This document shows, in pieces, positions 16,889-30,100 of a stretch of 46,241 nt of DNA (its first letter is position 1; every line of letters starts with the position of its first letter). The notes under the pieces are model-generated. The model was given only the letters and a program-made list of their open reading frames with translations. It was not told the DNA's origin and ran no database searches. Source of the DNA: Actinomycetota bacterium (GTDB lineage: Bacteria > Actinomycetota > Thermoleophilia > Gaiellales > F1-60-MAGs149); NCBI GenBank assembly GCA_009885805.1, contig VFJZ01000089.1, forward strand, positions 1 through 46,241, in the 5' to 3' direction. The position numbers and the translations under genes were made by a program.

Positions 16889-19800
16889 TCAGCGCTGCCC
16901 GGAGGCGGAGTCCCGCGTCCAGAAGCGGAGGCGCTGCGTTGGGTCTTCGTCCGCCGGCAGCCGGTCGCGCGACTGCTCGCCAACGGCGGCGTCGGCGGCC
17001 GTCTGCAGTGAGTGCTGCAGCATCTCGGCGAAGGCGGTCAGGTCGGCCTCCTTCCGGGCGAGCGTCCCCTCCATCGAGCGCAGGCGCCCCTCGAGCTCGC
17101 GGATCGAGTCCTCCCGCCGATCAAGGTCGGCCTGGCGGGCCTCGATCGAGGCCTGCTTCCGTCGTCGCCGGTCGAGCCAGGCCTGGACCGGGCTGCCGTC
17201 CTCGTCGACCTCCGGCGTCCCGTCGGCGACCGATCGTGGCGACTCGGGGTGGTGGATCGCCTCGCGCAGGCGCTCGACCTCCTCCTCGACGCCGTTGATC
17301 TCCTCCTCCCGCGTCTTCACCTCGGCCACCCGCTGCTCGAGGTCGTCGGCGCGGCGATCGAGCTGGCGCTCGCGCGTCACGAGCGCGTCCTCGACCCGGC
17401 GCATCTCCTCGCGACGGCGCGCGAGCGACTTGGCAATCGTCGTCAGCTCCATTTCGCGTCGTTCGAGATCGCCCGAGACAGAGCCGCGAGACTGCTTCGC
17501 CGCCGCCACCCGCTCGGACAGTTCGCGTTCCATCGCGGTCGCGACGGCGAGGCGCTCGGACAGGTCCCGCTCGAGGTCGACGAGGTGCGCTCGCTCCGCC
17601 TCCAACTGGTCGGCGACGGCCCGCTGACCGGCGATCTGACCACGGACGTCCTCACCGCGTGAATCGACCCGCGCCAGCTCGGACTGCACCTCCGCCGCAC
17701 GTTCAGCGATGGCCCGCTCGCGGCCGGCGAGGTCGGCCATCGCCCCCGCCCGGAGGGCATCGTCGCCGCGCAGAGACTCGAGCTCGGCCCGGAGCGCGGC
17801 GATCTGCTGCTGCGACGCCGCCTCGCGCTCGGCGAGCACGCGCAGCCGCGACTCGGCGGCAGCCGTTCGCTCGCCGGCTTCGCCTTCATCCCCGTCGGCG
17901 GCGTCGTTCCGGCGGGCGAGCTCGGTCTCGAGCGCCGACACGCGATCCTCGGCGGTGCGAGCGCGTTCCTCGAGGGAGACCGCGCGGTCGCGGGCCTCGG
18001 TGCGCGCCGCCGTCAGCTCCGACTCCACCTGCGCGAGCTGCGCCGCGCTTCGCGTGGCTTCACTCCGCGCGGCCTCGCGCGCCTCGCTGGCGACCGCCAA
18101 CTCGCTTGCCAGCGATGCGGACTCGACGACCCGCGCCTCGGCCGCGGCCAGTGCCGCCTGCGTCTCGTCGGACGACGTCTGGAGCGCGGTCACCCGCGAC
18201 TGAGCCTCGCCGAGCGCTGCGGCGTGCTCCTGCTGCAGCCGCTCGACATCCGCAGCGCGAGCAGCGAGCTCCCGTTCCAACTCGTCGCCCCGGCCGACGG
18301 CCTCGGTCTGAGCGACACGAAGCGTCTCGACCTCCTGACGGGCGAGCGCGGCGTCCGCCGCCGCGGCGTCGAGCTGACCGCTCAGGTCGCCGCGGGTCGC
18401 TTCGAGCGCCGCCGCCAACGACTCGGCCTCGGCCTTCACTCGATCGTGTTCGGCCTGGAGCGACTCGACCTTCGCCTGCGCCTCCTCGGCGCGTAGTTCG
18501 GCGGCAGCCACGGTTTCGCGAGCTTCGGCCAGCCGCGTGTCGCCGCCGCTGCGGGCGGTCGCGAGCTCCGCCTCGAGCACCGCTATCTTCTCCTGCGCGT
18601 CGGTGACGGCCCGCTCGGCTGCGGCCGCCCGCTCCTCGGCCGCCGCTGTCGCCTGGCGCTCGGCGTCGATCGTGCGCGCCGCCGCCTCCGGGTCAAGTCG
18701 GCCCTTCGCGATCGCCCTGACGTCGGCCAGCGTCCGCTCCAGCTCGGCGCGCTCGGCAGCCGCGTCATCGCGCTCCTTCGTCGCCTGCGCTGTGACCTCG
18801 GCTGCTCGCTGGTCGGCGGCTTCCAGCCCGGCTGCGAGCCGCTCAGCTTCCGCCCGCCCTGCCGCGAGCGCCTGCTGGGCCTCGCCGGCGCGCCGCTCTG
18901 CCCCCTCGAGCCGGGTGCCCAGCTGCTCGGTCTCTGCCCGCACGGCCGCGGCGTCACGCTCGACCGCAGCCACGCGCTCCGAACCGGTCGCCGCCGTCTG
19001 CGCGATCGCCTCACTCGCACGCTGCTCAGCAGCCGCGACCTCCGCCGCCAACCGCCCGGCCTCCGCCCGCGTCGCCGCAACCTCCTGCTCCAGCACCGAG
19101 ACGCGCTCGTCTGCCACCGCCGCCGCCGCGTCACGCGCCGCCACAAGCGCCCGCTCAGCCTCCTCCAGCCGGGCGCCCAACCGCTCGGCCTCGGCTCGCG
19201 CCGCTGCCGCGTCACGCTTGACCGCAGCGACGCGCTCACCCTCTTCCCCCGCCGCCTGTTCGCGTACGCGCGCCGCGTCGGCAACCGCCTCGCCAGCGCG
19301 CTGCTCCGCTGCGTGGAGACGGGCCTCCAGATCCTCTGCGTCGGCCCGGGCCGCGGCCATCGCCTGCTCCAGTTCGGCAACGCGCTCCGACCCCGTCACG
19401 GCCGTCTGCGCAATCGCCTGAGCAACCGTCTCCGCCACCCGCTGCTCCGAAGCGGTGAGTTCGGCCGCAAGCCGTTCGCTCTCAACCCGCGCGGCGGCGA
19501 CCTCGTGCTCGGCCTCGGCGATCCGCTCCGCCGCCAGCCGCTCCGCCTCGGCCCGCGACGCGGCGACCGCCTCTTCCAGCTCCGCGACCTGCGACGCGGC
19601 CATCGCCGCCGTCTCGCGGAGGACGTCGAACTCGGCGGCGTCGGGTGCGCCGTCCGCGGCCGCGTCCGGTCGTGTCTCGAGCTCGAGCTGGAGCTTGAAC
19701 AGCGCCTCCTCGAGGATCGCGATACGACCCTCCGCAGCGTCTGCATCGTGCGGGACGGCTGCACCCTCCACGCCGGACGAGCGCTCCGCCGCGGCTGCCC

Positions 19801-20482
19801 GTAGCGACGCGACCTCGCTCTCGAGCTCCTCCGCACGCAGCGCGAGCACCTCCGCCTGGTCGGCCTGCTTCTCCAGCGACGAGACACGTGCCTTCATGTC
19901 CTCCGGGTCGACGAGGCGCCCGGAGGCGGCGCGCAGGTCGGCAATCACGCCTTCGAGTTCGGCGCGCTTCGCGTCGGCGCGCTCGCGGTCAGCATGGACA
20001 TCGGCCAGTTCGCGCTCCCTGCCGGCGACCTGTTCCTGGAGCGCGTCAAGCTCGGCCTTGAGATCGGCGGCGACGCCATCGAGATCCTGGACGCCGTAGC
20101 TCATCATGTTCTCGAGTTCGGCTGCCCGCGCGCGCTCCCGATCGAGCGCCTCGGTCGCGGCTGCGACGAGCTGCTCGTGCTCGGCGAGCTGCGCCTCGAG
20201 TTCGCCGACGCGCGCGATCGTGTCGGCGTTGATCGCGGAGAGGTCGATGCCCGCCTCGTGTGCAGCCAGGGCGCGCTCCCGCGCCTCGAGTTGTGCCTCG
20301 CGCTGCCCAAGCAGCTGCTCGGCCCCCTTCAGGAGCTTCTGCGACTCCTCGCGGATGCGGTCCTGCAGCGCGTCCTCGTCCGCGGCCGACTGGCGATCGT
20401 CGATGGTGCCGCGCAGGCTGCGCGGCGCTCCCTCGCTCTGGGCCAGTTTCTGCAGCCGGGACTGGACATCACGCTCGGTCAC
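16889..20482 (-). CDS. 1197-residue coiled-coil protein
   Basis: Very long, charged, Ala/Glu/Arg-rich protein. Almost all of residues 40-1180 is predicted coiled coil, without signal peptide, membrane helix, Walker motifs or hinge. The middle holds a repeat of about 43 residues (50 in one case) marked by ERV-starts at 366, 416, 459 and 502. Breaks occur near 180-200 (GRLVDPEDM), 590-600 (GRLDPEA), 860-870 (acidic DGDEGEAGE) and 1075-1100 (Pro-rich). It resembles filament- or scaffold-forming proteins (Scy- or SMC-arm-like), but the lack of an ATPase head rules out SMC itself. The start is a GTG at 20482 with GAAGGG just upstream. A cytoskeletal or polar scaffold role is inference. Confidence 0.8.
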   Translation of the reverse strand: MTERDVQSRLQKLAQSEGAPRSLRGTIDDRQSAADEDALQDRIREESQKLLKGAEQLLGQREAQLEARERALAAHEAGIDLSAINADTIARVGELEAQLAEHEQLVAAATEALDRERARAAELENMMSYGVQDLDGVAADLKAELDALQEQVAGRERELADVHADRERADAKRAELEGVIADLRAASGRLVDPEDMKARVSSLEKQADQAEVLALRAEELESEVASLRAAAAERSSGVEGAAVPHDADAAEGRIAILEEALFKLQLELETRPDAAADGAPDAAEFDVLRETAAMAASQVAELEEAVAASRAEAERLAAERIAEAEHEVAAARVESERLAAELTASEQRVAETVAQAIAQTAVTGSERVAELEQAMAAARADAEDLEARLHAAEQRAGEAVADAARVREQAAGEEGERVAAVKRDAAAARAEAERLGARLEEAERALVAARDAAAAVADERVSVLEQEVAATRAEAGRLAAEVAAAEQRASEAIAQTAATGSERVAAVERDAAAVRAETEQLGTRLEGAERRAGEAQQALAAGRAEAERLAAGLEAADQRAAEVTAQATKERDDAAAERAELERTLADVRAIAKGRLDPEAAARTIDAERQATAAAEERAAAAERAVTDAQEKIAVLEAELATARSGGDTRLAEARETVAAAELRAEEAQAKVESLQAEHDRVKAEAESLAAALEATRGDLSGQLDAAAADAALARQEVETLRVAQTEAVGRGDELERELAARAADVERLQQEHAAALGEAQSRVTALQTSSDETQAALAAAEARVVESASLASELAVASEAREAARSEATRSAAQLAQVESELTAARTEARDRAVSLEERARTAEDRVSALETELARRNDAADGDEGEAGERTAAAESRLRVLAEREAASQQQIAALRAELESLRGDDALRAGAMADLAGRERAIAERAAEVQSELARVDSRGEDVRGQIAGQRAVADQLEAERAHLVDLERDLSERLAVATAMERELSERVAAAKQSRGSVSGDLERREMELTTIAKSLARRREEMRRVEDALVTRERQLDRRADDLEQRVAEVKTREEEINGVEEEVERLREAIHHPESPRSVADGTPEVDEDGSPVQAWLDRRRRKQASIEARQADLDRREDSIRELEGRLRSMEGTLARKEADLTAFAEMLQHSLQTAADAAVGEQSRDRLPADEDPTQRLRFWTRDSASGQR

Positions 20483-20538: not shown

Positions 20539-21659
20539 GTGCTGGCGGAGCCGAATTACCCCCCCGTCGGGGGAGGTCAGCGCCGGTGGGAGCGTCGACT
20601 CTGCAGGCAGGCGACAGCTGGGGGGCAGAGCATCGCGCTCGTGGTCATCTCGATGACGATGCTGCTCGGGATGGCGGCGCTCGTTGTCGACGTCGGCCTC
20701 GGGTGGTACGCCAAGCGGCAGATCCAGGCAACCGTCGACGCCGCGGCGCTCGCGGCCGCGCAAGAGCTGCCGTCGTCGGCGAACGCGATCGCCCAGGCGC
20801 ACGAGTACATCACGAAGAATCCGGTGCGCGGGCGTCACTCGGTTGCAGGACACGATCGTCACCAGGTGCCTCTCGACCGCTCCCGGTTGCAGCCCGGTCA
20901 ACGCCGTCTCGATCAACGCCACCGCCTCGACGCGCACCGGCTTCGCGCGCATCTTCGGTATCAACACGATGACGGTCGGCGCTCGCGCGACGGCGTGCCA
21001 GCCCTGTGGCGCGAGGCCGCTCGACATCGTGATCGTGCTCGACCGCACCGGCTCGATGAGCGAGGGCGGCTCGCCCAACAAGCTCCAGAACGCACGAGCC
21101 GGCATCATGACGTTCCTCAACTTCCTCGACGCGGGCACGGCCAGGGTCGGCCTCACGGTGCTGCCGCCGGCAAACACGCTCGGCAACAGGTGCGCCGCCG
21201 GCCAGAACACCTGGTACGACTCGACGTCGTCGGTCTACACCCTGGTACCGCTGTCAAACGACTTCAAGCTCAACGGCGTCATCAACAACGCCTCGAACCT
21301 CGTGCAGACGGTGAACTGCATGGTGCCGGGAGGCAGCACCCACTACTCGCTGGCGATCCAGGCGGCCCAGGCCGAGTTGAATGCGAACGGGCGCGCGAAC
21401 GTCCAGGACGTGATCGTGTTCCTCACCGACGGCGCCGCCAACACCGGCCCGCACTTCTACGGCTCGACAGCGGAATCGCGTCAGCGGCATCCTCGAATCG
21501 CCCGCGATCACGCCGGACCAGGCGCTGTCGCAGATCGCCTCGACGCCGAGCAACTACTACGTCAGGCCGGACGCCGGGCAGCTCAACACGATCTTCACCC
21601 AGGTCGCAGCTGACATGTCGGCCGGCACGTCCCGCCTCGTCGACGAGGCCTGGGGATGA
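20539..21659 (+). pseudogene. Broken TadG-like pilus-assembly/vWA protein gene
   Basis: Three frames together give one damaged protein. The first (from the GTG at 20539) reads GGQSIALVVISMTMLLGMAALVVDVG-type TadE/G sequence up to about 20825, a membrane helix plus the start of the extracellular part. The frame then shifts (net +1) to one encoding GVTRLQDTIV and a vWA domain with a MIDAS motif DRTGS at about 21041 and TDGAANTG at about 21427. Near 21470-21480 it shifts again and reads SGILESPAITPDQAL to TSRLVDEAWG and the TGA at 21657-21659. The piece expected between GPHFY and ESPAIT in this family (about 40 codons) is missing. It is either a decayed gene or assembly error, and the deletion favours decay. 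Confidence 0.7.
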
Positions 21660-21671
21660 CGCAGGGCGCCG

Positions 21672-23486
21672 CTACGAGCCGAGCGCCGTGATATCCACCT
21701 CGAGCGTCTGCTCGAACGCCGGTAGGGCGACGCGGCGGCCGTCGCCCTGCAGCACCAGGGCGTCGCCGCCGCGCACCCGTGCGCTGGCGGCGACGAACGG
21801 CAGCTGAAGCGTCTGCGGCGGGACGGCGCCGTCGGCCGTGAGGCGCACGATCCAGGACTGCTCGCCCGGCTCGGCCTCCAGGCGCAGGCCGTAGCGGGCC
21901 GCGTAGAACGCCCCGTAGGTGCTCGCGTCTCCGACCCAGAGGTCGGTACCGGCCGCCGCCAGGAGACGTTGCAGAGCGAACGTCGTTGTCGTCCCCGCAG
22001 CCGGGTCGAGCCGGACGACGGCCGGCGCTCCGGAGGTACGGGCGTGGAGCAGGAGGCCGTCGAGCTCGACGGCGCGGAGATCGGCACGCCCGCCGGCCGC
22101 GTCATCGAACCCGACCGGGACGCGCAGGACCGGCACCTCGCCGCCGACGGCGCCCACCGCCGCCGGCCGGTACGGCAGCGAACCGCCGACAGCCGCCGCC
22201 GCGACGGTCACGCCCGCCGTGTAGCCGGCGGCTGCAAGCGCTCCGTCGAGGAGGTCGAGTTGCTCGGACGCGGCGAGCAGTAGCGGCGGCGAGAAGAGCG
22301 TGGTCTCGGCCTGCGCCGCGACGCCGACGACGTGCCGGCCGACACGCGCTTCGCCGGTCAGCGTCGTGCCGCCGCGCGCGGCCGACGGTGCGTAGCCCGG
22401 GTGCGCCTCGCTCCCCGAACCGGCGGTCGCGGTCGCGAGCGCCTCGGGCGCGATGCCACCGGCGGCGACGTCGAACCCGTCGGCGCGCAGCGCCCGCAGG
22501 GTCGCGACGGCATCCGCATCGAGGATCGCGTCACCGCTCGCAGCGGTGCGCGTGACCGCCGCGAACGTGGCCCGCACGCCGCGGTCGCGTTCGATCGCCG
22601 CGACGTCGGCCGCCGCTGCGTAGGCGTCGGCGCTCGCCAGGGGATGGAGGAGCACGAGCGCAGCGGCGAGGCCGTCGGGCGCCGAACCGAGGCTGACGCC
22701 GGTCGGGGTCAGGCCGTAGAGGGTACGGGCGACGAGCGCAGCCAGGTCGCGCGAGCGGAACGCCTCTGGCAGGAGGTCCGTCGGTGCCGCGCCTGCCGCA
22801 GTCACGCCCACCAGTTGCTCCAGCCGGACGCCGAGGAGCACGACGACACCCGTGCCGATGCGACGGACGGCAATCGCGGCGCTGCCGTCCACGAAGCGGG
22901 CGAGCGCGCCGCCGTCCTTCGTCCAGCCGATCGTGTCCCCCGCCTCGAAGGCGATGGTCGCGGCCGGCACGCCGCCGCCCTCGAGCAGCGTCAACCGGTC
23001 ACGACGCGCGGCGACGGGTGCGTCGACGCCGGCCAGACTCTCGGCCACCGGCGAACTGCCGTCGATCACGAGCACGCCGCCGGCCTCGACGTAGCGGGCG
23101 AGCTGCGCGCGCTGCGTCTGCGCGATCGGGCCGGTCCAGGCGACGAACGGGTGCGTGAGGGCGTCGCCGGCGCTCGCAGCCACGCTCGACGGGACGCCGG
23201 CCGACGTCAACCAGGTGATCGCCGCAGTCACGTCCGCGCCAGCCGCGGAGACGAGCGCGGCACCGGTCGGGCCACCCGCCAGCTGTCCCAATGCCACTCT
23301 CAGCACCGGCGCGTCGGCCGGCCCCGGCCCGTACCCGATCTCGGGTGCCGCCGGGGCTACCGTCGCCGGCCGCTCGACGCTCCGCGTCGCTGTCGGGAAG
23401 CGGCTGACGACGAGCGCCGCCGCCGCGGTCAGGGCGACAGCGGCAATGATCAGCGCCGGGAAGGCGAGGGTCCTCCGCTCGTCCAC
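21672..23486 (-). CDS. Membrane-anchored protein with GATase-like and deacetylase-like regions
   Basis: A 604-residue protein with an N-terminal membrane anchor (about 9-29) and the rest outside. Residues about 60-240 look like the GATase-like fold in uncharacterised surface proteins (PVLRVALGQ, GGVLVIDGSS, GTGVVVLLGVRLEQL). The middle (about 270-400: LAAALVLLHPLASADAY ... ALRADGFDVAAGG) follows the strand order of a polysaccharide-deacetylase barrel, but the Asp-Asp and His-x-x-x-His metal ligands are absent, so it is probably inactive. The end is beta-rich. It begins with a GTG at 23486. It lies 18 bp downstream of the threonine synthase gene on the same strand. I do not recognise a named function. 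Confidence 0.65.
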   Translation of the reverse strand: MDERRTLAFPALIIAAVALTAAAALVVSRFPTATRSVERPATVAPAAPEIGYGPGPADAPVLRVALGQLAGGPTGAALVSAAGADVTAAITWLTSAGVPSSVAASAGDALTHPFVAWTGPIAQTQRAQLARYVEAGGVLVIDGSSPVAESLAGVDAPVAARRDRLTLLEGGGVPAATIAFEAGDTIGWTKDGGALARFVDGSAAIAVRRIGTGVVVLLGVRLEQLVGVTAAGAAPTDLLPEAFRSRDLAALVARTLYGLTPTGVSLGSAPDGLAAALVLLHPLASADAYAAAADVAAIERDRGVRATFAAVTRTAASGDAILDADAVATLRALRADGFDVAAGGIAPEALATATAGSGSEAHPGYAPSAARGGTTLTGEARVGRHVVGVAAQAETTLFSPPLLLAASEQLDLLDGALAAAGYTAGVTVAAAAVGGSLPYRPAAVGAVGGEVPVLRVPVGFDDAAGGRADLRAVELDGLLLHARTSGAPAVVRLDPAAGTTTTFALQRLLAAAGTDLWVGDASTYGAFYAARYGLRLEAEPGEQSWIVRLTADGAVPPQTLQLPFVAASARVRGGDALVLQGDGRRVALPAFEQTLEVDITALGS

Positions 23487-24559: not shown

Positions 24560-25159
24560 ATGCACGTGCTGATCTGGTCGGACTTCCTCTGACCGTACTG
24601 CCGGGTTGCCCAGGAGCGGGCGACGTGGCTCGCGGACGAACTGGGCGCCACCGTCGACTGGCGCGCATTCGACCTGCATCCGGAGTACCCGCCGCGCGGC
24701 ATTCCCCGTGCCGACCTCGTGCGGCGCTACGGCGAGGAGTCGTTCGTGCGGCTCCGCGAGATGTTCGCAGCCGCGGGCTACCCGTACAACCCGCATCCTG
24801 ATGTGGTGCCGAACACGCGCCTCGCGCTCGAACTCGGCGAGGCCGCCCGCAGCGAGGGCCTCCACGGCGCGTTCCACGACGGCGTGATGGACGCCTACTG
24901 GCGAGCTGCGCGCGACATCGGCGACCCTGTCGAGCTGCGCGCGATCGCCGTCGCCGCCGGCCTCTCGACCGCCGTCATCGACGCCGCGATCGACGAGCGG
25001 GCGTTCGCCGCGGCGGTCGACGGCGCGACCTCGTGGGCCCGGTCGGCGGGGATCAACGCGGTGCCGGCCTTCGTCTTCGACGGCCGCGTCCTGGTGCTCG
25101 GCGCGCAGCCGCACGAGGTGCTCGCGCAGGCCGCAGATCAGGCCCTCGAACCCTTGTAA
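24560..25159 (+). CDS. DsbA/FrnE-like thioredoxin-fold oxidoreductase; predicted selenoprotein (UxxC)
   Basis: Thiol-disulfide oxidoreductase of the DsbA/FrnE/HCCA-isomerase superfamily, 199 residues if the TGA at 24590-24592 is read as selenocysteine. The N-terminus is MHVLIWSDFL-U-P-Y-C. Homologues have SDxxCPxC here, so the TGA sits exactly at the nucleophilic Cys (residue 11) and the resolving Cys14 is intact. The frame then runs unbroken through the helical insert (DLVRRYG, MFAAAGYPYNP) and the cis-Pro loop GINAVPAFVFDGR to the TAA at 25157-25159. A hairpin of SECIS geometry follows the TGA. There is no signal peptide, so it should be cytoplasmic. An ATG-only call would start inside the gene and lose the active site. 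A nonsense mutation or base error is the alternative. Confidence 0.85.
24600..24629 (+). promoter_or_regulatory. Candidate bacterial SECIS hairpin
   Basis: The stem begins 7 nt after the TGA. The lower part is 24600-24603 with 24626-24629 (one G-U), then one G/G mismatch, then seven pairs, GUUGCCC (24605-24611) with GGGCGAC (24618-24624, one U-G). The apical loop is AGGAGC (24612-24617). The loop starts 19 nt after the TGA and has G at positions 2 and 3, within the known bacterial range. The GGUUGC side and AGG loop start resemble the E. coli fdhF element as I recall it. Confidence 0.65.
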
Positions 25160-25160
25160 C

Positions 25161-25174
25161 CGAACAGGTGTTCG
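25161..25174. promoter_or_regulatory. LexA (SOS) box of imuB
   Basis: CGAACAGGTGTTCG is an exact CGAAC-N4-GTTCG operator. It sits just before a -10 TATAGG (25175-25180), so bound LexA would block the promoter. A possible -35 TTGTAA lies at 25154-25159. Confidence 0.88.
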
Positions 25175-25188
25175 TATAGGGTGTGCCG

Positions 25189-26370
25189 GTGATCGCCGCG
25201 CTCACCGTCCCCCGCTTCGCCTTCGGCGTCGTCGCGCGACGGCTCGGGCTGCGGGATCCGGCGGTCGCTGCGGCGCTCGCGCCGGAACCGGGCGGTCCAC
25301 CCCGGGTGGGCGAGCCCTCCGCCGCCGCCGGAGCGGCGGGAGTACGGGAGGGCATGCGTCTATCCGAGGCCCTCGCGCTCTGCCCGCACCTCGCGCTCCT
25401 ACCGCCCGATCCGGTGGCGGTCGAGCAGGCAGCCGAGGTGCTCTGCGCGCAGATCGAGGCGCTCGGCCTGGCCGTCGAGCCGGCCGGGCCGGGCCGGGCG
25501 CTGATCCAAACGGATCCGGTCGAGCGTCTCTACGGCGGTCGGCCCGGCGTGCTGATGCGGCTGCAAGACACTGCACCGGACGGCCGGGTGGGGGCCGCCC
25601 CCGGTCGCTTCTGCGCCCTCGCGGTCACGCGCCGAGCGCGGCCCGGGCGGCCGGTCTCCGTCACCGGACCGGCGGTGCGTGAGTTCCTGGCACCGCTCGA
25701 GATCGGCGCGCTCGCCGCCGACGGCGGCGTCGCCGACGACCTGGTGGAGGCGCTGCGCCGGCTCGGCATCGACCGTCTCGGCGCGCTCGAGGCGCTCGGG
25801 CGGCTGCAGCTGCGCGACCGCTTCGGGCCGGCCGGCGAGCACGCCTGGCGGCTCGCGAGCGGTGACGATCCCACGCCGCTGCGCCCGCGCAGCGCGACCG
25901 TCGCCCTACGCGAGTCGCTCGCACTCCCAGATGCCGCCGTCACGGAGGGGATGCTGGAACATGCGCTGCGCGTCCTCGTCGAGCGGCTCCTGGCCCGCGA
26001 CGATCGCCGTGGGCGTGAGCCGCGCACGCTGCGACTCGGTGCCCGCCTCGTCGGCGGCGGCTCCTGGAGCACCGGCGTGACGCTGCGCGAGCCGACCGCA
26101 GATGCCGGCCGCCTGCGCCTCGCCCTGCACGCGAAGCTGCAGGGGCTGCCCGCCCCGGCCGAGGAGTTGACCGTCGAACTGACAGCACTCGCACCCGGCA
26201 ACCATCAGGTGCCGCTGTTTCGCGACGAGGGCGACGCCCGCGCCGCGCGCGTCGGTGCCGCCGTCAGCCACGTGCGGGCCGCGCTGGGCGAGGGAGCGGT
26301 GCTGCACATCGTCACCGTCGAGGAGACGAGTCGCCTGCCGGAGCGCCGCTTCGGGTTGGCGCCGCGCTGA
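25189..26370 (+). CDS. imuB: ImuB-like Y-family polymerase homologue (translesion accessory)
   Basis: Catalytically inactive Y-family relative that in other bacteria links DnaE2 to the sliding clamp in SOS mutagenesis. Its 393 residues keep the palm and little-finger layout (REFLAPLEIGAL, LRRLGIDRLGALEALGR helix-hairpin-helix, LRESLALP) but lack the Asp/Glu catalytic residues: the first strand reads VIAALTVPRFAF. A clamp-binding pentapeptide QVPLF lies at about 340-344. It is shorter than many ImuBs (around 500). I choose the GTG at 25189 over that at 25183: it lies 8 nt after the -10, exactly as dnaE2 does, and 25183 would lie before the transcription start. It is followed at 1 bp by the small imuB-linked gene. 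No imuA' is present. Confidence 0.85.
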   Translation: MIAALTVPRFAFGVVARRLGLRDPAVAAALAPEPGGPPRVGEPSAAAGAAGVREGMRLSEALALCPHLALLPPDPVAVEQAAEVLCAQIEALGLAVEPAGPGRALIQTDPVERLYGGRPGVLMRLQDTAPDGRVGAAPGRFCALAVTRRARPGRPVSVTGPAVREFLAPLEIGALAADGGVADDLVEALRRLGIDRLGALEALGRLQLRDRFGPAGEHAWRLASGDDPTPLRPRSATVALRESLALPDAAVTEGMLEHALRVLVERLLARDDRRGREPRTLRLGARLVGGGSWSTGVTLREPTADAGRLRLALHAKLQGLPAPAEELTVELTALAPGNHQVPLFRDEGDARAARVGAAVSHVRAALGEGAVLHIVTVEETSRLPERRFGLAPR

Positions 26371-26665: not shown

Positions 26666-27091
26666 ATGGCCCGTCGCCTGCAGAACGCCGGCACCGCACT
26701 GCACCGCGCGATCCTACGCCTCACGCGCGGTCGCCTGACCGGGCGCGTCGGGCGCGCGCCCGTGCTGCTCCTGACGACGACGGGCCGGCGCAGCGGCAGG
26801 CGGCGGACGATCCCGCTGCTCTACGTCGCGGACGGCGACGACTACGTCGTGGTCGCCTCCAACGGCGGTGCTCCCGCGCACCCGGCCTGGTACCACAACC
26901 TCTGCGCGCATCCCGACGCGACGGTCGAGGTACGCGGCAGGAGCACGCCGGTCCGCGCCACCGACGTGCCGGCGGGGCCGGAGCGGGAGCGGCTCTGGCA
27001 GGGGGCGATGGCGATCTACGCCGGCTACGCCTCCTACGCGACGCGCACGGACCGCACGATCCCGCTCGTCCGGTTGACGCCACTCACCTGA
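26666..27091 (+). CDS. Deazaflavin (F420)-dependent nitroreductase-family protein
   Basis: A 141-residue split-barrel protein of the Ddn/DUF385 family, which binds F420H2 and reduces quinones or nitro compounds. Typical segments are LLLTTTGRRSGRRRTIPLLYV, VVVASNGGAPAHPAWYHNL and the motif PDATVEVRG. It begins at the ATG at 26666 with its own -10, so it is probably not in the SOS transcript although it lies between imuB and dnaE2. Its 3' end is 3 bp before the extended LexA operator of dnaE2. The presence of this family suggests the organism makes F420. Confidence 0.88.
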   Translation: MARRLQNAGTALHRAILRLTRGRLTGRVGRAPVLLLTTTGRRSGRRRTIPLLYVADGDDYVVVASNGGAPAHPAWYHNLCAHPDATVEVRGRSTPVRATDVPAGPERERLWQGAMAIYAGYASYATRTDRTIPLVRLTPLT

Positions 27092-27094
27092 ATA

Positions 27095-27108
27095 CGAACA
27101 TCTGTTCG
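27095..27108. promoter_or_regulatory. LexA (SOS) box of dnaE2
   Basis: CGAACATCTGTTCG, extended to ATACGAACA-TC-TGTTCGTAT, 9-bp arms around two bases. It directly precedes the -10 TATAGA (27109-27114). Confidence 0.9.
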
Positions 27109-27122
27109 TATAGACTTGACGG

Positions 27123-30100
27123 GTGACCGGCTACGTCGAGCTGCACTGCCACTCTGCCTTCTCGTTCCTCGACGGCGCATCGCACCCGGAGGAACTCGTC
27201 GACCGCGCCGCCCGGCAGGGTCACGGCGCGCTCGCGCTGACGGATCACGACAATCTCTGTGGCGCCCTCGTGTTCGCCCAGGCCGCCGTGGCGGCGGGCA
27301 TCAGGCCGATCACCGGCTGCGAGCTGACGGTACGCACGGCGGCGGACGAGCACCGTCACCTGACCCTGCTGGTCGCCGATCACGCCGGCTACGAGCATCT
27401 CTGCGAGCTGATCACCCGGGCGCACGCGCATACGCGCGACACGCCGGACCGCTCGCCCTCCCGACCCTGGGCGACGATCGACGACGTCTGCGCGCTGGCG
27501 GGCGGGCTCATCTGCCTGACCGGGTGCGCGCGCCACGGCGTCCATGACCGCGAACCGGTCGTGCGCTCACTCGCCGACGCGTTCGGCCGTGACCGGCTGC
27601 ACGTCGAACTGCAGCGCACCTTCAGTCAGGGCGACCGCAGCCGCCTGCGCGAGCAGCGCGCGCTGGCGCGCCACCTGGGCCTCGGCGTCGTCGCGACGAA
27701 CGACGTGCACCTGCACAGCCGCCGCCGCGGGCCGCTGCAGGATGCAATGGTCGCGATCCGCGTGCACGCGACCCTCGACGCCTGCGAGGCGGAGCGACGC
27801 GGGAACCGCGAGCACGTCCTGAAGTCTCCGGCCGAGATGGCGGCGCTTCACGCGGAGATCCCCGAGGCGGTCGCGGCGACGGCTGCAATCGCCGCGCAGA
27901 TCACGTTCGACCTGACCCGCGACCTCGGCTACCGGCCGCCGGCCACCGTGGACGAGCCCGACGGCGAGTTGGCGCGGCTCTGCGCGCACCTGTTCGAGAC
28001 GCGGTACCCGACCACGTCGGCGCATCGCCAGCAGGCCCGCGACCGGCTCGAGGACGAGCTCGCCCTGATCCGCCACCACCACCTGTCGGGCTTCTTCCTG
28101 CTGCACCACGAGGTGCTCGAACTGGCGCGCGAGGTTGCGCTCGACGTGCGCGGTGCCGACTCGCCACGGATGCTGCTGCCTCCCGGCCGCGGCCGTGGCT
28201 CCAGCGTCGGCTCGATCGTCTGCTACCTGACCGGCCTCTCCCACGTCGACCCGGTCGCCTCGCAACTCTCCCTCGGTCGCTTCCTGAACCGCGAACTGGC
28301 CTCGGTGCCGGACATCGACCTCGACTTCCCGCGCGACATCCGCGAGGGTCTGATCCTGCGCGTCCACGAGCGCTACGGCGATCGTCACGCCGCGCTCGTC
28401 GGCGCGCTCGCCACCTACCGCTCGCGCAGCGCGATCCGCGAACTCGGCAAGGCGCTCGGTCTACCAGCGGCGGACATCGCGCGCCTCGCGACCTCGTCCG
28501 ACGGCTGGAACGCCGCGAACGTCGGCGAGGAGATGGCGCGCCTCCCTGGCATCGCCGAACGGGCGGGCGACCGCCGCTTCCGTGCGCTGGCCGCGCTCGC
28601 CCGCGAGATCGCCGGGCTACCGCGGCACCTCTCGCAACATCCAGGCGGCATGGTCATCTCCGACCGACCGCTCTCGACGATGGTGCCGCTGCAGCCGGCC
28701 GCGATGGCGGGCCGCACCATCTGCCAGTGGGACAAGGACTCCTGCAGCGACGCCGGCTTCCTCAAGATCGACCTGCTCGGGCTCGGCATGCTCTCGGCGG
28801 TCGAGGAGTGCGTCGTCACGCTCGCGGGCCAGGGGAAGACCGTCGACCTGTCGCGGATCCCACTCGACGATGCCGGCGTGTACGACGAGATCAAGGCGGC
28901 CGATACGGTCGGCGTCTTCCAGATCGAGTCGCGGGCGCAGATGCAGATGCTGCTGCGCACCCAGCCCGAGAACCTCGACGACCTCGTCGTTGAGGTCGCT
29001 CTCGTCCGGCCCGGACCGATCCAGGGCGGTGCCGTGCACCCCTACATCCAGCGGCGGCTGGCCCGTCGCGCCGACCCGGACTTCCCGATTCCCTACGACC
29101 ACCCGCTGCTCGCCGAGGCGCTCGCCGAGACGCTCGGCGTGATCGTCTTCCAGGACCAGGTGCTGGCCGCCGCCGAGGCCCTGGCGGGCTTCACGCCCGG
29201 CCAGGCCGAGCAGCTGCGCCGGGCCATGAGCCGACGGCGCTCGGAGGCGGCGATGCGTGCCCAGTGGGACGCGTTCCGCGACGGCGCCGCGGCGAAGGGC
29301 GTCGCCGAGCACGTTGCCGCCACCGTCTTCCAGAAGATCCTCGCCTTCTCCGCCTTCGGCTTCCCGAAGGCGCATTCCGCCGCCTTCGCCCTGCTCGCCT
29401 ACCAGAGCGCCTGGCTGCGACGCTACCACCCCGCCGCCTTCCTCTGCGCGCTGCTGAACGCGCAGCCGATGGGGTTCTACCCGCCCGCCTCGCTGATCCG
29501 CGACGGGCTGCGCCGCGAGGTCGCGGTGCGCCCCCCGGACATCGTCCGCTCCGCCGCCGCCTGCCAACTCGAGGGCGACGCCGTGCGCATCGGCCTCGGC
29601 TACGTCACCGGCCTCGGCGCCGACGGCGCCGCCAGCGTCGTGGCAGAGCGAGAGACCGGCGGGCCGTTCCGCGACGGTCGCGACCTCGCCGCCCGCCTCC
29701 CCCTGAAGGCCGACGCGCTCGAGCGGCTCGTCGCCTCGGGCACCTGCGACACGCTCGGGCCGCGCCGGCAACTGCTGTGGGAGCTCGGTCTCGCGGCGCG
29801 TCCACAGGCCGTGCGCGGCGGCCACCGACAGCTCGCGCTCGAGCTCGGGCTCGGCTCGTCCCCGCAGCTGCCCGTACCGGGCGAGTGGGAACTGCTCGTC
29901 GCCGACTACGCCCATACCGGCCTGTCGCTGCGGGAGCACCCGATCGCGATCATCCGCCGTGACCTCGCCGATGTCGTCTCGAGCGCCGACCTGAAGGAGC
30001 TACCGAGCGGCACCGCGATCGTCATCCCTGGCCTGGCGATCGCGCGCCAGCGCCCGGCGAGCGCGAACGGCGTCGTCTTCCTCCTGCTCGAAGACGAGCA

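Follow-up and report, generated by a model that had tools for sequence, protein, structure and literature searches.

Does the single TGA that interrupts an otherwise open frame in this actinomycetotal DNA end a gene, or does it encode selenocysteine (Sec)? The window, by which we mean the whole 46,241-nt stretch analyzed, comes from a draft genome of 3.56 Mb that is 95% complete. On its forward strand, a frame runs from an ATG at 24560 to a TAA at 25157-25159, and its sole internal stop is a TGA at 24590-24592, which is codon 11. Reading through this codon gives a product of 199 residues that begins MHVLIWSDFL-U-PYC and contains the segment GINAVPAF. The TGA stands where the SDxxCPxC active site has its first Cys (SDFL-U-PYC). 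We are confident that this TGA is a Sec codon, decoded with the help of a downstream SECIS element, and that the product is a FrnE-type protein with a Sec11-Pro-Tyr-Cys14 active site, most likely a cytoplasmic thiol-disulfide oxidoreductase.

The sequence-only reading of this DNA had described one open frame, broken only at codon 11 in a DsbA/FrnE-like active site, and its coordinates and translation were confirmed. It had also predicted that ordinary annotation would start the gene at an ATG at 24719 and lose the active site. Standard gene calling would return 24719-25159, a fragment of 146 residues without the active site, but codon 54, where that fragment starts, is a GTG and not an ATG; past the TGA, the frame has no ATG before codon 68, at 24761. 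No clear Shine-Dalgarno sequence was seen by eye upstream of the ATG at 24560.

The read-through protein (24560-25159) matched the Pfam DSBA family (PF01323) over residues 3-191 with an E-value of 2.3e-29. Among solved structures, the best match was FrnE from D. radiodurans (5cnw; E 1.8e-14, residues 3-194), with lower-scoring matches to SCO1869 (3gl5; E 4e-9) and, weakly, to a protein resembling 2-hydroxychromene-2-carboxylate (HCCA) isomerase (3fz5; E 1.3e-7). Homology to the solved FrnE indicates that the protein would adopt a thioredoxin/DsbA-type fold. Its redox residues are Sec11 and Cys14 only. The protein contains just one ordinary Cys, Cys14 (24599-24601), which is the putative resolving residue of the UxxC motif and lies in an invariant column, and the whole U-P-x-C motif was invariant across the family. 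The same was true of Pro169, which with Val168 (25061-25066) forms the predicted cis-Pro loop of the thioredoxin fold.

Homologues were then read at the codon in question. In a survey of 129 genomes from the order, a gene with exactly one TGA was found in 28, a stop-free gene of similar length and close similarity in 6, and only a partial or distant match in 2. Thirty loci from the order were read, the window included, and had TGA in 24 cases and TGC or TGT in 6, always at the same codon and with no further stop. Another 20 loci from the order and the class had TGA (15) or TGC (5) at the same position. In total, 39 Sec (TGA) loci and 11 Cys (TGC/TGT) loci were read, other stops were absent, and the alternating residue was always Cys and never Trp. 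The exchange of Sec with Cys among close relatives that the sequence-only reading would lead one to expect was therefore seen, and the scattered stops of a decaying gene were not. Surveys of the class and the phylum found one-TGA matches in several families and in other classes, mixed with stop-free forms. Invariant residues flank the TGA on both sides; those within codons 1-53 are S7, D8, P12, C14, W34, LHPEYP at 39-44 and G47, which argues that the region before 24719 is under protein-level selection. A single scan of genome contigs found just one distant relative (L054), 31% identical. In one genome of genus g3 that has selA, selB and tRNA-Sec, there was only a partial match covering query residues 82-187 (G005:C1:69998-70315), which may be a fragment or a divergent paralogue.

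The source genome contains the genes needed for Sec. selA scored 508.6 bits against a cut-off of 267.9, and selB 317.9 bits against one of 242.25; the two lie in tandem on contig C89 with a 4-nt overlap, and a tRNA-Sec with a UCA anticodon is found on contig C64 (64.7 bits), where ARAGORN also called tRNA-SeC. selD, at 353 bits, is on the minus strand of contig C37 (L021, G000:C37:18807-19727). It carries an in-frame TGA at its own active-site codon (ASGGG-U-ACK), so that SelD of this genome is a predicted selenoprotein too. Since selA, selB, tRNA-Sec and selD are all present, the host would be expected to make selenoproteins.

A stem-loop resembling a bacterial SECIS follows the TGA at 24600-24629, with 11 of 12 stem positions paired and the loop AGGAGC at 24612-24617. 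The fold of 24590-24640 was calculated at -26.8 kcal/mol, with a z score of -2.69 against dinucleotide shuffles. Because coding DNA here has high G+C, a null of synonymous codons, resampled from each gene's own codons, was chosen. Against this null, 24 Sec copies gave a mean z of -1.48, and none of the other windows among the 20 placed along the genes was as strong; the mean for 6 Cys copies was -0.07. The hairpin of the window's own copy had a z of -1.03, with 14% of draws equally stable, and is not significant alone; its fixed-register count of 11/12 pairs was likewise unremarkable against synonymous codons for this one copy. For the eight Sec copies from family f1, to which the window belongs, the alifold energy was -21.1, whereas the null averaged -12.2 (sd 3.0); the z was -3.0, and none of 200 draws was as low. 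The apical loop lies about 20-25 nt downstream of the TGA in most Sec copies and is scattered in the Cys copies, in which the hairpin is lost or weakened. Against synonymous codons, a SECIS hairpin just downstream of the UGA is supported for the Sec group but not for the window copy taken alone. One ungapped consensus SECIS for all 31 close Sec copies was also tried and rejected, as RNAalifold gave no structure; the stem register differs between clades, which accounts for the lack of a consensus fold. No Rfam family was found in the window. The proposal of a Sec-dependent thiol oxidoreductase was in this way supported by the sel genes, the Cys/Sec exchange at the TGA codon and the SECIS-like hairpin.

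Other explanations for the TGA were weighed against these data. Since TGA is one base from TGC and TGT and Cys homologues exist, a sequencing or assembly error in an ordinary Cys-type FrnE would be simple to imagine. However, the TGA is shared by 39 loci from separate genomes and several families, with one-TGA matches in other classes too, and on the tree the Cys forms group in clades. An assembly error therefore does not explain it, and we give this reading practically no weight. The gene could also be a nonsense pseudogene, or be translated solely from the GTG at 24719, which would agree with the 146-residue output of standard gene calling. This is extremely improbable, since an old nonsense mutation would not remain at one codon class-wide, no TGA copy that was read has a second stop, and invariant residues lie ahead of codon 54. 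Decoding of the TGA as a residue other than Sec, whether Trp or a Cys inserted by a suppressor tRNA or near-cognate read-through, gains something from the few Sec-form genomes that lack detectable selA/selB and from the fact that Sec insertion here is predicted from sequence. Yet a complete Sec system, UCA tRNA-Sec included, is encoded in the source genome, the exchange is never with Trp, the hairpin tracks the TGA forms, and no sel genes were detected in the Cys-form sisters from genus g3. Together these make such decoding very unlikely.

Another possible explanation concerns the activity of the enzyme and not the codon. The protein could be a selenoenzyme of a different kind, such as a glutathione-dependent HCCA isomerase or a selenium-dependent peroxidase. 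HCCA isomerases share the fold, as the weak match to 3fz5 illustrates, but the invariant U-P-x-C motif is of the dithiol type and is accompanied by the loop Pro, and the best match is to FrnE, a reported disulfide reductase/isomerase (PMC8945050). A different activity is accordingly rather unlikely.

The preferred reading remains a FrnE-type thiol-disulfide oxidoreductase with Sec in its active site. In the proposed mechanism, the stem-loop at 24600-24629 would recruit SelB carrying Sec-tRNA, and ribosomes would place Sec at position 11 in a SelB-dependent manner. The resulting DsbA-fold protein would be made without a signal peptide. We infer that it is cytoplasmic because the first strand already begins at residue 2, with no signal peptide ahead of it. 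Sec11 would act as the nucleophile on the substrate, and Cys14 would resolve the selenenyl-sulfide. By likeness to D. radiodurans FrnE (PMC8945050), the protein may serve the cell as a reductase or an isomerase of disulfides. Since a C-terminal CxxxxC is absent, regeneration would have to use another partner.

The homologues also suggest what happens when Sec is given up. Genus g3, from the same family as the window, contains both forms. All seven g3 genomes with the Sec form have selD, accompanied by selA and selB in four, by selB and tRNA-Sec in one and by tRNA-Sec in two. In the five with the Cys form, which are 68-85% complete, none of selA, selB, tRNA-Sec and selD was detected at the thresholds used; because all four genes are absent in each of the five, absence by chance is unlikely. 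The five Cys forms make up one clade on the tree (100/100) inside the Sec-form g3 clade (enclosing forks 97/92 and 100/99) and are a single event, not five. This nesting gives the direction as Sec to Cys, unless the root falls inside g3. Elsewhere, another Cys copy, that of G081, groups among Sec copies, and its genome retains selA, selB and selD; family f5 has a Cys clade for which the tree does not give the direction of change. Across the order, selA, selB or tRNA-Sec was found in 23 of the 28 genomes with the Sec form; at the thresholds used, the other five (G070, G078, G084, G085 and G099; 81-88% complete) have selD alone. selD by itself can also supply tRNA selenouridine.

These findings make it reasonably probable that Sec is long-standing in the FrnE-like enzyme of this clade and that one genus reverted to Cys, with loss of selA, selB, selC and selD and decay of the SECIS hairpin. 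According to a 2026 review, prokaryotes seldom convert Sec to Cys, and the documented cases mostly concern FdhA and SelD (PMC13188914). If true, the g3 reversal would be a mapped natural experiment in which a lineage leaves selenium dependence. The reversal with loss of the trait is the less ordinary part of the finding, as a DsbA-like UxxC selenoprotein is itself already known as a predicted kind.

Directly downstream of the selenoprotein gene is an ImuB-like polymerase gene with an IMS domain at 25183, preceded by an SOS-box palindrome. Next come genes for an F420H2-dependent quinone reductase, at 26666, and for a DnaE-type polymerase, at 27123. The window has two perfect CGAAC-N4-GTTCG palindromes of the LexA/SOS-box type, at 25161-25174 before the ImuB-like gene and at 27095-27108 before the DnaE-type gene, where 0.12 would be expected by chance. 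The two polymerase genes, each with an SOS box, form an SOS mutasome pair. Of 13 copies in the window's family, 12 have a GAAC-N4-GTTC box 2-19 nt past the selenoprotein stop, whether the form is Sec or Cys, and the order selenoprotein, SOS box, ImuB (24560-26370) is kept. The box follows the selenoprotein gene and more likely serves the polymerase genes; we claim no regulatory link to the selenoprotein. On the other side of the gene, a TadE/G-like Tad pilus N-terminus (20539-21804) and a VWA domain (20684-21610) were found in different overlapping forward frames within 20539-21807. They probably belong to a single gene that is frameshifted, either genuinely or through an assembly error. The minus strand at 16889-20482 encodes a coiled-coil-looking protein of 1197 residues, rich in Ala, Glu and Arg, that has no Pfam match.

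Ordinary annotation would cut this enzyme short, with loss of its active site, in many genomes. The family also offers closely related Sec/Cys pairs of one redox enzyme, from hosts with and without the Sec machinery, and the benefit of Sec to a thiol oxidoreductase is therefore directly testable.

Among the closest known systems is FrnE of D. radiodurans (DrFrnE; DR_0659, 5cnw), a cytoplasmic oxidoreductase whose DsbA fold and SDxxCPxC-type site resemble those of the window protein. DrFrnE was reported to be a CPxC disulfide reductase/isomerase, with its C-terminal CxxxxC proposed for regeneration (PMC8945050). In the terms of the FrnE subfamily, the window protein has the DsbA-fold domain and FrnE as its best PDB match, whereas it differs from DrFrnE in having Sec for the first Cys of CPxC and in lacking CxxxxC. 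FrnE of S. roseofulvus is likewise without CxxxxC (PMC8945050), so this motif is not strictly defining for the subfamily. SCO1869, the putative DsbA oxidoreductase of 3gl5, shares the FrnE-like sequence and the motif in its Cys form. The window protein can also be likened, by description, to the DsbA-like selenoproteins, with which it shares PF01323 and a UxxC site with Sec first (here U11-P-Y-C14). Such proteins were described in bacteria (PMC1794560) and, as 'DsbA 1' with UxxC, in the ocean (GOS) metagenome (PMC2398784). By 2016 they had been reported from 41 organisms (PMC5029168), and the 2026 review has them as 'DsbA-like protein form 1' (PMC13188914), with NIP15863.1 as the published representative. 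The sections of these four sources that describe the selenoprotein mention neither FrnE nor the lineage of the window; here, the family was followed across many genera with exchange of Sec and Cys at one codon.
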